Source of the DNA: Flavobacterium johnsoniae
Lineage (GTDB): Bacteria; Bacteroidota; Bacteroidia; Flavobacteriales; Flavobacteriaceae
Length of the DNA stretch: 64,000 bases
NCBI RefSeq assembly: GCF_001879205.1
Contig: NZ_MLFK01000001.1
Location: forward strand, 248,001-312,000
Direction of reading: 5' to 3'
How positions within the stretch are numbered: the stretch's first letter is position 1; each line of letters begins with the position of its first letter. The notes under the pieces are model-generated. The model did not search any database. It saw only the letters and a list, made by a program, of their open reading frames with translations, and had not been told where the DNA came from. Positions 34,406 through 42,310 of this stretch are shown here, in pieces. The position numbers were made by a program, and so were the translations under genes.

Positions 34406-35569
34406 CTATTTGCTTGCAAACAATTTCACATCGGTTTCAGAGATTTCGTTTCCTCCTAAAATGATTAATCTTTCAACCACATTTCTAAGTTCACGAATAT
34501 TTCCGGTCCAATCATACTCCTGTAATAATTTTATAGCCTGCGCCGAAAATACTTTCACCACATTTCCTTGTTCAGAAGCAATTTTAGCCGCAAAATGTCG
34601 TATCAAAGCCGGAATATCATCGCGTCTTTCATTTAATGGCGGTACTTTTATCAAAATAACAGCCAGACGGTGGTATAAATCTTCACGGAAACGCCCTTCG
34701 GCAATTTCTGTTTTTAAATCTTTGTTTGTTGCAGCTACAACGCGAACATCAACTTTAATATCTTTATCTGCACCAACTCGGGTAATCATGCTTTCCTGAA
34801 GTGCTCGTAAAACTTTGGCTTGCGCCGAAAGACTCATATCGCCAATTTCGTCTAAGAAAATAGTTCCTTTATCTGCTGCTTCAAACTTTCCGGCACGATC
34901 TTTCACTGCTGATGTAAAAGCACCTTTTACGTGTCCAAATAATTCACTTTCTATTAATTCACTCGGAATCGCCGCGCAGTTTACTTCGATTAAAGGGAAA
35001 TTAGATCGTTCGCTTTTTTCGTGTAACTGATGCGCCACTAATTCTTTTCCGGTTCCGTTTGGTCCCGTAATTAAAACTCTGGCTTCGGTTTGAGCTACTT
35101 TATCAATCATCATTTTTATATGATTAATAGATTCGCTCTCGCCTATCATTTCGTAGTTCTTGCTGACTTTTTTCTTCAGAATTTTATTTTCAACAACTAA
35201 TTGTTTTTTGTCTAAAGCGTTACGAACTGTATTTAGTAAACGATTTAAATCTGGTGGTTTTGAGATATAATCAAAAGCGCCTAAACGCATAGTGTGAATT
35301 GCTGTTTCCATATCGCCATGACCTGAAATCATCACCATCGGAATCTCTGGTTTTATTTTTTTTACTTCTTCTAAAACCTCAACACCATCTAATTTTGGCA
35401 TTTTAATATCGCACAAAACCAAATCGTAATCGTTGTTTTTTATTTTTTCAAGACCAGCGGCACCATCCTCGGCCTCATCAACCTGATACGCATCATTTTC
35501 TTCTGATAAAATTTTCACCAAAACTCTTCTAATCGCCGCTTCGTCTTCTATAATTATTATTTTACTCAT
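34406..35569 (-). CDS. NtrC-type sigma-54-associated response regulator lacking a DNA-binding domain
   Basis: 387 residues. Seen: receiver domain (1-120) with Asp54 in 'DLVLCDIKMPKLDG' and Lys in 'DYISKPP'; AAA+ domain (about 138-370) with Walker A 'GPNGTGKE' (167-174), sigma-54 contact loop 'GAFTSA' (214-219, family consensus GAFTGA), Walker B 'GTIFLDEIGDMS' and 'WTGNIRELRNVVERLIIL'. The protein stops at 'SETDVKLFASK', so the Fis-type helix-turn-helix expected after this point is absent. It may activate from solution or through a partner. No histidine kinase is adjacent. Confidence 0.92.
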   Translation of the reverse strand: MSKIIIIEDEAAIRRVLVKILSEENDAYQVDEAEDGAAGLEKIKNNDYDLVLCDIKMPKLDGVEVLEEVKKIKPEIPMVMISGHGDMETAIHTMRLGAFDYISKPPDLNRLLNTVRNALDKKQLVVENKILKKKVSKNYEMIGESESINHIKMMIDKVAQTEARVLITGPNGTGKELVAHQLHEKSERSNFPLIEVNCAAIPSELIESELFGHVKGAFTSAVKDRAGKFEAADKGTIFLDEIGDMSLSAQAKVLRALQESMITRVGADKDIKVDVRVVAATNKDLKTEIAEGRFREDLYHRLAVILIKVPPLNERRDDIPALIRHFAAKIASEQGNVVKVFSAQAIKLLQEYDWTGNIRELRNVVERLIILGGNEISETDVKLFASK

Positions 35570-39337: not shown

Positions 39338-39916
39338 TTAGTTTCCAACTACAACTTTAGGGAAACGAATAATTTTGTCTCCTAATTTGTATCCTTTTTC
39401 AATAACATCAACAATTTTCCCTTTTAATTTATCAGACGGAGCCGGAATTTGGGTAATTGCCTCAGCAATATCAGCATTAAAAGCATCACCTGCTTGAATT
39501 TCAACTTGCTCTAATCCTTTAGAAACCAAAGTGCTTTTTAGTTTTTCATGAATTAACTCAACTCCTTTTTTCAAATTCTCATCGTCAGATTTGTTGATCT
39601 CTACAGCTGCTCTGTCAAAATCGTCTAAAACAGGAAGCATTGCTAACAAAACTTCTTGATTTGCAGTTTTAAACAAATCGATACGCTCTTTTGAAGTTCT
39701 TTTTTTGTAATTTTCAAATTCGGCAAATAATCTCAAAAACTTATCTTTTTCTTTTGCCAAGTCTTGAGCTAATTGCTCTTCAACACTTAATTCTTCAACA
39801 ATTAACTGCTCACCGTTGGCATTGTTCTCTAACGTTACATCGTCTAATTCCTGATCGAATTCTGTATTTTCCGTAGTCATATTACTTTTATTTTTAAAAA
39901 TATTCTTAAACTTCAT
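39338..39916 (-). CDS. grpE: Nucleotide exchange factor GrpE
   Basis: 192 residues. Seen: acidic N-terminal arm, long helix 'DLAKEKDKFLRLFAEFENYKKRTSKERIDLF' and 'LLAMLPVLDDFDRA', then the beta domain with 'AITQIPAPSDKLKGKIVDVIEKGYKLGDKIIRFPKVVVG', all characteristic. It releases ADP from DnaK. The ATG at 39916 fits the promoter at 39941; a second Met 12 codons on is an alternative. First gene of a grpE-dnaJ pair; dnaK is not in the window. Confidence 0.96.
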   Translation of the reverse strand: MKFKNIFKNKSNMTTENTEFDQELDDVTLENNANGEQLIVEELSVEEQLAQDLAKEKDKFLRLFAEFENYKKRTSKERIDLFKTANQEVLLAMLPVLDDFDRAAVEINKSDDENLKKGVELIHEKLKSTLVSKGLEQVEIQAGDAFNADIAEAITQIPAPSDKLKGKIVDVIEKGYKLGDKIIRFPKVVVGN

Positions 39917-39940
39917 TTTTTATTTCTTTCTTTTGGATTG

Positions 39941-39972
39941 CAAAAGTACTGCCAAATCTTATAAAATGTCAA
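39941..39972 (-). promoter_or_regulatory. grpE-dnaJ promoter (TTG-N21-TACTTTTG)
   Basis: On the minus strand a TTG (39972-39970), 21 bases, and the -7 element TACTTTTG (39948-39941), matching both Bacteroidota boxes and their spacing. Leader to the ATG is about 20 bases. No CIRCE-like operator is seen. Confidence 0.75.
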
Positions 39973-40065
39973 ATTGTCACTTTATTAATTATGAGACTTT
40001 TAAAAATCGAAAAAGGCTCATTAAAATTTATTATAATTTTAAGACTATTACGTTTTAGTTTGTCG

Positions 40066-40073
40066 TATATTTG
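40066..40073 (+). promoter_or_regulatory. -7 element TATATTTG of a candidate noncoding transcript
   Basis: Exact TAnnTTTG on the plus strand in an intergenic region with no plus-strand gene before 42311; a terminator follows about 100 bases on. No TTG at -33 spacing. Confidence 0.5.
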
Positions 40074-40076
40074 AGT

Positions 40077-40209
40077 CCCAAAGTAAGAACTAAATTATTA
40101 CCTATCAAAATTGAATTTAAGGGTTGGCCTCGGCCTCTAAATAATTATTAATTCAAGTTTACCTTATATTAAAAAAAGCTTCGCCTTTATAGAGACGAAG
40201 CTTTTTTTT
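40077..40209 (+). ncRNA. Candidate small noncoding RNA
   Basis: About 130 bases bounded by an exact -7 element and a strong intrinsic terminator, with no reading frame beyond nine codons. Seen folding: outer stem TTGAATT (40111-40117) / AATTCAA (40150-40156), inner stem ATTTAAGG / CCTCTAAAT with a GC-rich GGCCTCGGCC centre that stands out from the AT-rich surroundings. Position, opposite and beside tRNA-Trp, rules out a leader for a coding gene. Function unknown; could be a known Bacteroidota RNA family that I cannot identify by eye. Confidence 0.5.
40171..40209. terminator. Bidirectional terminator between the candidate ncRNA and tRNA-Trp
   Basis: AAAAAAAGCTTCG, twelve-base loop, CGAAGCTTTTTTTT. 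T-runs in both directions, so it can end the plus-strand RNA and the minus-strand tRNA transcript. Confidence 0.9.
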
Positions 40210-40255
40210 ATGCTTTAAACTTTTTAATTCTTCAAAAGTCTTTGATGTATTTTCG

Positions 40256-40326
40256 CACGGGCGGAGGGATTCGAACCCCCATCAACGGTTTTGGAGACCG
40301 CTATTCTACCCTTGAACTACGCCCGT
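40256..40326 (-). tRNA. tRNA-Trp (anticodon CCA)
   Basis: 71 bases on the minus strand. Acceptor arms ACGGGCG and CGCCCGT pair fully, discriminator G; anticodon stem GCGGT/ACCGT with loop CTCCAAA, anticodon CCA reading UGG; T-loop TTCGAAT. CCA is not encoded. It sits alone, 310 bases from hisS, and is followed by a terminator. Confidence 0.95.
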
Positions 40327-40475
40327 AACTTAAGGTCGGCAAATTAAAAGCTTTTTTTCTTCACCAGCAAGTATTTCGCGCAGATTAGAAAAGATTTAAG
40401 CTGATAAAAAGCTAGTAAATAATTAACCAAATCATCTTCAAAGGTTTGCGAATTCCTCTTTTTTTCAGCAAAATA

Positions 40476-40530
40476 AAAACCAGATGAAATCATCACAAAG
40501 ATTGCCAGTTTTTTTTAGAGATCTGGTTTT
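40476..40530. repeat. Inverted repeat AAAACCAGAT / ATCTGGTTTT
   Basis: Perfect ten-base arms 35 bases apart in the 310-base gap between tRNA-Trp and hisS. The rest of the gap is AT-rich with no gene. Confidence 0.55.
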
Positions 40531-40541
40531 ATAAAAAAAAG

Positions 40542-40583
40542 AAAGTTCGCAAAGCTATGTGTTTCTCCAGCTTTGCGAACTTT
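40542..40583. terminator. 15-base perfect hairpin after hisS, AAAGTTCGCAAAGCT family
   Basis: AAAGTTCGCAAAGCT / AGCTTTGCGAACTTT around twelve bases, T-runs on both strands. Terminates hisS; a near-copy is at 47667-47708. Confidence 0.85.
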
Positions 40584-40636
40584 TTGTTTTTTTATATGTG
40601 AAATAAAATATCTTAGCGTACTTTGCGGTTAAACTC

Positions 40637-42064
40637 TTATGCTAACAAAGCATTTTTTAATCCTTCAAAGTCCACAGAAACCTGCTCACCTGTCACTAAA
40701 TTTTTAAGTGCATACGAATTTGAAGCAATTTCCTGATCACCGGCAATGACCGCAAACGGAATCAAACGTTTATCTGCATATTGAAACTGTTTCCCTACTT
40801 TTACATTATCAGGATATAATTCAACTTTAATATTTTCCTGTCTTAATTTCTGAATAGCTTTTGAAGCATACAAAGCTTCTTTATCTCCGTAATTAATAAA
40901 TATGGCTTTTGAAGTCGCTGCCACAGTTTCCGGGAATAATTGTAATTCTTCTAAAACCAGATAAATTCGGTCTAGTCCAAAAGAAATTCCAACACCGCTC
41001 ATATTTTTTAAACCAAAAATACCAGTCAAATCGTCGTATCTTCCGCCCCCGCCAATAGATCCCATTGATACGGTTTTTGGAGCTGCAACTTCAAAAATAG
41101 CTCCGGTATAATAATTTAACCCTCGAGCCAAAGTTACATCTAAATCTAGAGTTGCTGTCGCCAAACCTAAAACCGCAACATTGTCACAGATAAACTTCAA
41201 TTCTTCAACACCTTTCATACCTTCTTCTGATGAAGCTAATAATTCCGAAAGCTGCTTGATTTTATCTGCAAAAGTGCCGCTAAAATTAAAAAGAGGCTGT
41301 ACTTTTAGCAACGCTTCTTCGGCAATTCCTTTTTCGATCATTTCTTTCTTTACGCCGTCTTCTCCAATTTTATCTAATTTATCAAGGGCAACCGTAAAAT
41401 CGATTAATTTATCTGAAGCCCCAATAACTTCGGCAATTCCAGATAATATTTTTCGGTTATTAATTTTGATCGTTACACCTTCTAAACCTAGAGAAGTAAA
41501 AACAGTATCGTACAATTGAACCAATTCTACTTCCTGCCATAACGATTTTGAACCAACAACATCGGCATCACATTGATAAAATTCTCTGTAACGTCCTCTC
41601 TGCGGGCGGTCAGCTCTCCACACCGGTTGAATCTGATATCTTTTAAAAGGAAATTCAATTTCGTTTTGGTGTTGCACAACGTATCTTGCAAACGGAACTG
41701 TTAAGTCGTAACGCAAAGCTTTTTCAGAAATTTTTCCTGTAAATTTATTAAGTTCAATTCTTTGATTGATATCAATTGTTTCCGCAGAATTAACCTGCAG
41801 CGCTTCAATCGATTCTGGTAATTCAATTTTATTTTTATTGAAGAAAAAGTTACCCGAGTTTAATATCTTAAAAATCAAACGATCTCCTTCTTCTCCATAT
41901 TTCCCCATTAAAGTATCTGAATTTTCAAACGAAGGAGTTTCTATCGGCTGAAAACCAAATTTCTCAAAATTATTTTTTATGGTTTGAATAATATATTGAC
42001 GTTTTGACACCTCTGCAGGCGAAAAATCTCTTGTTCCTTGTGGAATACTTGGTTTTGAAGCCAT
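40637..42064 (-). CDS. hisS: Histidine--tRNA ligase
   Basis: 475 residues. Seen: N-terminal '[19 protein letters not shown]', class II motif 2 '[24 protein letters not shown]', histidine-binding '[15 protein letters not shown]' and '[17 protein letters not shown]', motif 3 '[16 protein letters not shown]' and a C-terminal anticodon-binding domain. Charges tRNA-His. Slightly longer than the E. coli enzyme because of an insertion near residues 70-110. Upstream lies a repeat-filled gap and the divergent MacB-like gene. Confidence 0.97.
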
Positions 42065-42129: not shown

Positions 42130-42310
42130 CCTTTAAAATTATTTTACTTTTAGATTTTTTTTGATTGTTGGTTTTACACTTTCGACTTTATGACTTTCCA
42201 ACTTTCGACTTAATTTAAAACGGACTGCAAATATCTTACTTTTTAAAATAAATAATAACACTTCGAAAACAAACTTGTAACAAAAAACGTATTTTCGTGA
42301 CAAATTGGTC

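Follow-up and report, generated by a model that had tools for sequence, protein, structure and literature searches.

What occupies the short stretch between the divergent grpE gene and a tRNA-Trp gene in Flavobacterium johnsoniae, where promoter-like and terminator-like sequences face the same way and no protein is encoded between them? We examined this locus in a window of 64,000 nucleotides (the whole stretch of DNA that was analysed), which is contained in a Flavobacterium genome of 5.49 Mb and 13 contigs (G000). A preliminary description had read the locus as a promoter-to-terminator unit of about 130 bases; the terminator is real and no reading frame is kept, but the conserved unit begins earlier, at about 40023. 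The unit spans 40023-40209 on the plus strand and comprises a promoter, about 130 bases in which no reading frame is conserved, and a strong terminator (Table 1). Our reading, which we hold at a probability of about 0.72, is that this is a small-RNA gene made from a YceI-family lipoprotein gene (here yceI), that its promoter, stop-codon motif and terminator are under selection, and that it likely acts as a regulatory RNA.

Table 1. Position and basis of the features of the unit and of its neighbours in the window
Feature	Position	Strand	Basis	Remark
Upstream promoter block, consensus AAAATTTARTATAATTTTAAGACTATTACG	40023-40052	+	conserved	TTTAA and TTTTAAG about 11 bases apart, by eye
TAnnTTTG box of the primary sigma factor, TATATTTG	40066-40073	+	sequence	identity 0.84 over 37 units
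Predicted small RNA	40078-40209	+	promoter and terminator	start at about 40078 if the box is -12 to -5; end in the T-run
Variable 5' leader	40078-40105	+	identity 0.25 over 37 sequences (40074-40108)	
Fossil of the last yceI codons	40106-40141	+	alignments and ORF-end comparison	includes the GC-rich core; compare EIELKVSVTAKK in G155
Former yceI stop codon TAA	40142-40144	+	alignment with yceI stop codons	
11-mer motif ATTATTAATTC	40144-40154	+	near-invariant	last base of the old stop codon and start of the old yceI 3' tail
Intrinsic terminator	40168-40209	+	81.1% of cells paired, covariation	stem 40171-40208
grpE	39338-39916	-	ORF list	constant divergent neighbour of the RNA unit
grpE promoter, sigma-54-like -24/-12, TTGGCAGTACTTTTGCAA	39938-39955	-	by eye	distinct from the promoter of the RNA
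tRNA-Trp	40255-40326	-	Rfam gathering scan of the window	convergent neighbour, outside the RNA unit

The surroundings agree with the preliminary description, which had placed the unit next to tRNA-Trp and had seen no plus-strand gene for two kilobases. The tRNA-Trp gene is confirmed, and from grpE/dnaJ (minus strand) to a permease-like ORF at 42305 (plus strand) the plus-strand ORFs of at least 60 codons lie opposite minus-strand genes. Of 20 related stretches, each about 4 kb long, four contain this tRNA gene. Between tRNA-Trp and hisS, at 40520-40605, stands a long hairpin with T-runs on both strands, which looks like a bidirectional terminator and drew sub-threshold Rfam miRNA matches. On the other side, a direct repeat, TGACA-ATT-TGACA, precedes the sigma-54-like promoter of grpE (39938-39981, minus strand; by eye), and the grpE of F. 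psychrophilum is also listed with a sigma-54 promoter in the partial text of PMC9723704. The repeat recurs by eye in many related stretches, several of them without the RNA, and is a possible candidate for a heat-shock regulator site. Together with the sigma-54-like promoter it forms a conserved block belonging to grpE itself, which sits between grpE and the promoter block of the RNA (by eye). Elsewhere in the window (34406-35569, minus strand) an NtrC-like response regulator combines a receiver domain with a sigma-54 activation domain; it ends shortly past the AAA+ lid, and the domain scan matched no DNA-binding domain in it.

Membership of a Bacteroidota-specific Rfam family, raised in the preliminary description, found no support, as no Rfam 15 family reaches its curated score at the unit. 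The gathering scan of the window matched only tRNA and DUF805b RNA (RF02914; 31219-31251, plus strand; 36.9 bits against a cut-off of 35.6), and, apart from tRNA, everything that a lax scan of 39900-40700 brought up was below threshold and fell mostly on two terminator-like hairpins. We also considered and rejected 6S-Flavo (RF01685), which like the unit is a flavobacterial stand-alone RNA: its model matched the unit in neither scan, and the genome's 6S-Flavo-like match (G000:C1:418863-418971; 74.8 bits, below the 85-bit cut-off) lies about 131 kb away. A literature search on the locus, covering titles and the openings of abstracts, found nothing that describes the unit or its origin, which is not proof that no such description is in print.

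The unit is widespread in the genus. A BLAST search with 39990-40330 returned matches over the unit in further Flavobacterium genomes, and a sequence-only model, R1, built from 37 RNA units and including no yceI gene, matched 201 of 298 Flavobacterium genomes, some of the matches being yceI promoters or 3' ends. All 19 matches with E above 1e-9 were inspected beside grpE, where 11 proved not to be RNA units and eight were units (three with changed motifs). With the 182 stronger matches, counted mostly on score, the RNA unit is present in about 190 of the 298 sampled genomes, and R1-negative genomes may hide diverged units. Applied to 296 genomes of the order, R1 gave 30 matches within the genus and two weak ones outside it (G517 and G562), both far from grpE, which look like chance.

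Moreover, the position of the unit is constant. It is divergent from grpE in all 181 stretches that contain both, three of the 184 stretches having no grpE; these stretches include repeats of the same genomes and hold 142 distinct unit sequences. At loci of types B and C the order dnaJ-grpE, RNA, epimerase was found in 21 of 24, with the epimerase end 44-60 bases past the motif (the epimerase is further off in L105 and not contained in L080 and L228), while at type A loci, to which the window belongs, the right-hand flank has changed and the epimerase is found in 0 of 21. Two genomes that are very close by GrpE and DnaJ differ at this place: L317 (G193) carries a variant unit and L267 (G148) other DNA.

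The preliminary description had reported an exact TAnnTTTG element, and TATATTTG does fit that pattern; its placement relative to the start site is taken from the partial text of PMC9723704. Upstream of it lies the promoter block, in which 37 sequences share a mean pairwise identity of 0.87, compared with 0.36 immediately 5' of the block and 0.25 in the leader; the block's 26-mer consensus has a single match genome-wide at up to three mismatches. We tried the block as a marker of a regulon and rejected it: a 19-mer with three mismatches allowed found 20 sites, fewer than the 49 of the reversed pattern, and the best site was the unit itself.

A conserved block upstream of grpE, whose promoter is sigma-54-like, might alternatively be a regulatory DNA site of the divergent sigma-54 grpE-dnaJ operon, to which the RNA would be incidental, and sigma-54 promoters use distant activator sites. 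The spacing makes this reading very unlikely. Within the block, TTTTAAGA begins 28-29 bases 5' of the RNA's own TAnnTTTG box in 182 of 184 stretches (the exceptions being 39 in L044 and 25 in L223), whereas its distance to the grpE start ranges from 114 to 896 bases (114-153 in 167 of 181). Because the spacing is near-fixed to the box of the RNA and variable to grpE, the block belongs with the RNA. In addition, it is the promoter of yceI in several genomes with that gene, several genomes without the block retain grpE together with a TGACAATTTGACA block and the sigma-54-like site (by eye), and a DNA site would leave the motif and the terminator unexplained.

Downstream of the promoter, the most constant element is the 11-mer ATTATTAATTC, which is presumably a functional site. 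At least 119 public-genome stretches have the exact promoter 18-mer; among the matches listed, 97 have a TAnnTTTG-like box in place, and three of these are cut short, leaving 94 full-length loci chosen by promoter and box alone. Of the latter, 92 have an exact ATTATTAATTC within 130 bases downstream. The two without it are L126, on a Clostridia contig, and L155, which has no grpE in its 8 kb. In the 37 units the identity of stop codon and motif is 0.91, a value inflated because the motif was required when those units were chosen, a bias from which the count of 92 is free. Variants of the motif occur in RNA units as TTGTTAATTC (L317), CTTATTAATTC (L321) and AGCATTAATTC (L329), and a shortened form is present in L049. 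A minimal unit upstream of grpE in G306 (L274) consists of the box, about 30 bases, AATTATTAATTCACC and the terminator, with no hairpin between.

The fold of the unit bears out only part of what had been proposed. The preliminary description had named a strong terminator, and the hairpin is followed by the end of a T-run, with pairing and covariation scores over the 37 sequences that were reached by 0 of 500 shuffles on both counts; an A-run ahead of the stem gives a T-run on the minus strand also. It had further described two nested stems, the conservation of which, with compensatory changes in relatives, was to be checked. Both are present in the window, the outer as TTGAATT (40111-40117) with AATTCAA (40150-40156) and the inner as ATTTAAGG (40115-40122) with CCTCTAAAT (40134-40142). 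Because they share three bases (40115-40117), the two cannot be complete at the same time, and conservation is limited in both. The outer stem has 66.4% of cells paired, which 16 of 500 shuffles reach, with its covariation reached in 35 of 500; for the inner stem the figures are 65.6%, 102 of 500 and 350 of 500. Over the 37 sequences, then, these stems show little or no covariation, in contrast to the terminator.

RNAalifold placed zero consensus pairs on the 37-sequence alignment, and a pseudoknot candidate, TAAGG (40118-40122) with CCTTA (40162-40166), is broken by eye in L044, L046 and L047. The unit folds better than shuffled sequence (z -2.36, one of 200 shuffles as good), with the terminator contributing most. 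The motif is only modestly more accessible than the 5' part, with means for types A, B and C of 0.59, 0.77 and 0.67 against 0.55, 0.51 and 0.63. We therefore rejected a conserved fold, since only the terminator stem is conserved. The terminator of the 37 units averages a pairwise identity of 0.65, the linker 0.52 and the pre-motif region 0.46, and by this comparison of sequences constraint is concentrated in the promoter block, ATTATTAATTC and the terminator.

What stands at this place in genomes that lack the unit points to its source. Many such Flavobacterium genomes have a same-strand protein gene beside grpE, in several of them behind the same promoter block. Its reading frame has about 220 codons (224 and 219), both members scanned carry the YceI domain (PF04264), and the start is lipoprotein-like by eye. 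These loci have the order dnaJ-grpE, yceI, epimerase; in 20 of 28 of them the epimerase is present, no more than about 100 bases from where yceI ends. Outside the genus, 6 of 16 genomes of the same family also have yceI beside grpE, so the protein gene most likely came first. With these loci the RNA unit shares the promoter block in several species, the flanks in types B and C, and the motif at the stop codon and 3' tail: of the 22 yceI genes of the genus whose 3' end is readable, nine have TAATTATTAATTC, allowing up to one mismatch, starting at the stop codon. It is absent from that position in 13 of the 22 and in all six genes from other genera, and G155, which is outside the 22, has a form of the motif with one extra base.

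Among 2110 ORF ends, TAATTATTAATTC is found exactly at six, all of them yceI, and with one mismatch at six more, three of which are yceI and three belong to one other gene family. At three loci of distant yceI paralogues (L300:1418, L304:1425 and L306:1426), the stop codon of a neighbouring gene carries TAATTATTAATTAA, one mismatch from the 13-mer, which may be chance or a feature shared by 3' ends. The R1 model, in turn, matched yceI 3' ends among the loci searched, at 2e-8 in both L229 and L324, 2.9e-7 in L318, 6.7e-7 in L281, 3.4e-6 in L278 and 9.3e-6 in L282.

The resemblance extends into the coding sequence. We compared the 40 bases 5' of the motif in 14 units, the motif itself being excluded, with the last 45 bases of 2195 ORFs, and ranks 1-5 were all grpE-linked yceI genes; the best score was 23.1 for G155, against a mean of 11.85 and a standard deviation of 1.2, and 5 of 10 motif-bearing yceI ends scored no better than background. 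In the window, AAATTGAATTTAAGGGTTGGC aligns with GAAATTGAACTTAAGGTTAGC of G155, which encodes EIELKVS. The GC-rich foldable core and its stems, which the preliminary description had taken as evidence for an RNA, are thus mostly decaying yceI codons. A stand-alone small RNA is still the best reading of the unit, given its conserved promoter, box and terminator, its fixed spacing and its lack of a frame, with transcription predicted from these signals; the case for it comes from elsewhere than the stems, and the unit appears to be a shrunken protein gene. Judged by homology, it would have the composition of a 3'UTR-derived RNA, that is, the 3' end of a coding gene followed by a terminator.

Remains of a coding sequence might also mean that the unit still encodes a very small protein left over from yceI, and by eye the window does offer such a frame, MNLRVGLGL, starting from a TTG at 40111. 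We consider this extremely unlikely, as the frame is not kept: the distances from AAGG to the stop codon span all three frames in type A, 9 of 77 units have an ATG ahead of the motif, and the L274 allele is too minimal to offer more than its roughly 30 bases from box to motif. The ORF list and the frame test found no reading frame for a YceI domain in the RNA unit.

If the unit was made from yceI, the gene should be gone where the RNA is found, and this is the pattern among the genomes compared. In 17 of 17 RNA-bearing genomes the best YceI match has at most 47% identity and lies elsewhere, not linked to grpE, and in four of four gene-bearing genomes YceI stands beside grpE with 51-100% identity to the query. 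A tree separates four of the YceI paralogues from 28 grpE-linked genes with support of 100/100. With the grpE-linked yceI missing from all 17, it seems that loss of the coding sequence turned an mRNA into a small RNA.

This loss likely happened more than once. Placing the RNA and gene states on a GrpE and DnaJ tree of 64 rows takes five changes, of which well-supported branches force three, and the test of a single RNA clade rejects it only at the borderline (AU p 0.0475); a 92-row tree, with neither-state rows excluded, needs five changes as well. The rows of these trees were hand-picked, and the 64-row set omits 19 neither-state rows, the short rows L129, L115 and L124, and those of other genera. 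Allele exchange between species could also cause such a pattern, and the yceI tree and the GrpE and DnaJ tree disagree on L268/L327. A broader claim, that the conversion of mRNA to small RNA was repeated through independent losses of yceI, each leaving the promoter, stop motif and terminator, and that the conserved function of the unit resides in the 3' tail and not in the protein, we advance tentatively, at somewhat less than even odds.

The same remains could belong to a dying yceI pseudogene, the promoter and terminator of which still work by chance, and the RNA would then be functionless. The free decay of the coding end and leader fits this view, as do lineages with neither RNA nor yceI beside grpE (e.g. 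L267, L269, L283 and L328). Against it, within one and the same set of sequences the promoter block and motif show far greater similarity than the leader and fossil, and the genomes counted above retain the unit with GrpE down to about 70% identical to that of the window, so that we regard a mere relic as unlikely. The survival of the promoter, last codons, stop codon, 3' tail and terminator through the loss of the coding sequence suggests a role for the RNA itself, and an RNA acting through the motif would be the simplest account of the constraint on promoter, motif and terminator.

The nearest parallel is of the CpxQ kind, CpxQ being a small RNA from the 3' end of the cpxP mRNA (PMC4817254): in the partial text of that source, as in our reading of the unit, the RNA stems from an envelope-related protein gene and consists of the end of its mRNA with the 3' tail and terminator. 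There the source mRNA still encodes CpxP, whereas the unit has lost its coding sequence, and the promoter of the former mRNA would drive the tail directly. Our literature search, over titles and the openings of abstracts, found no precedent for a small RNA born by the loss of a coding sequence, which does not prove that none is in print. Bacterial small RNAs change fast and leave little behind, so their origin is hard to trace. Here, the states before and after are both found in living species, with flanks and promoter in common and the coding end still legible as a fossil, and the step from mRNA to small RNA can thereby be placed, counted and tested. Moreover, this would be an RNA with a link to a heat-shock operon, present in most of the Flavobacterium genomes sampled, and from a phylum where RNA regulation is less well known.

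Short independent transcripts are reported from the same genus. A transcriptome of F. psychrophilum lists 89 RNAs, Rfp1-89 (PMC9723704, partial text), among which the unit may have its counterpart. One of them, Rfp18, is described in the same text as structured and widely conserved in the genus, and as needed for normal levels of metalloprotease mRNAs, and the unit could be its counterpart. That text, however, places Rfp11 at 182,564, Rfp36 at 840,245 and the start of grpE at 1,798,337; the Rfp numbers appear, from the two Rfp positions, to follow the chromosome, which argues that the unit is probably not Rfp18. In addition, Rfp18 is said there to pair through its third stem-loop, and the only conserved stem of the unit is the terminator, which leaves this identity highly improbable.

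Returning to an RNA made from yceI, we propose the following course. The ancestor would have been a YceI-family lipoprotein gene transcribed away from grpE by the conserved promoter, with a 3' tail that in many species began with TAATTATTAATTC from the stop codon and ended in the terminator. In the lineage of the window, and perhaps separately in others, the coding sequence would have been lost and its last codons would have decayed, while the promoter, the stop-codon motif and the terminator stayed under selection. The product would be an RNA of about 130 bases, which most likely works as the 3' tail of yceI did; we infer that this tail already acted as an RNA within the yceI mRNA. Through AUUAUUAAUUC, which lies beside the terminator, the RNA may act in trans by pairing with mRNAs, or it may bind a protein. 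If this course is right, the 3' tail of the yceI mRNAs in other species should be functional. Searching for complements of the motif yielded 53 sites, counting the unit itself, compared with 29 in the control, and no convincing target among the 30 that were examined. Three of these 30 (L351, L364 and L366) fall in the 150 bases ahead of a start codon, each with two mismatches.
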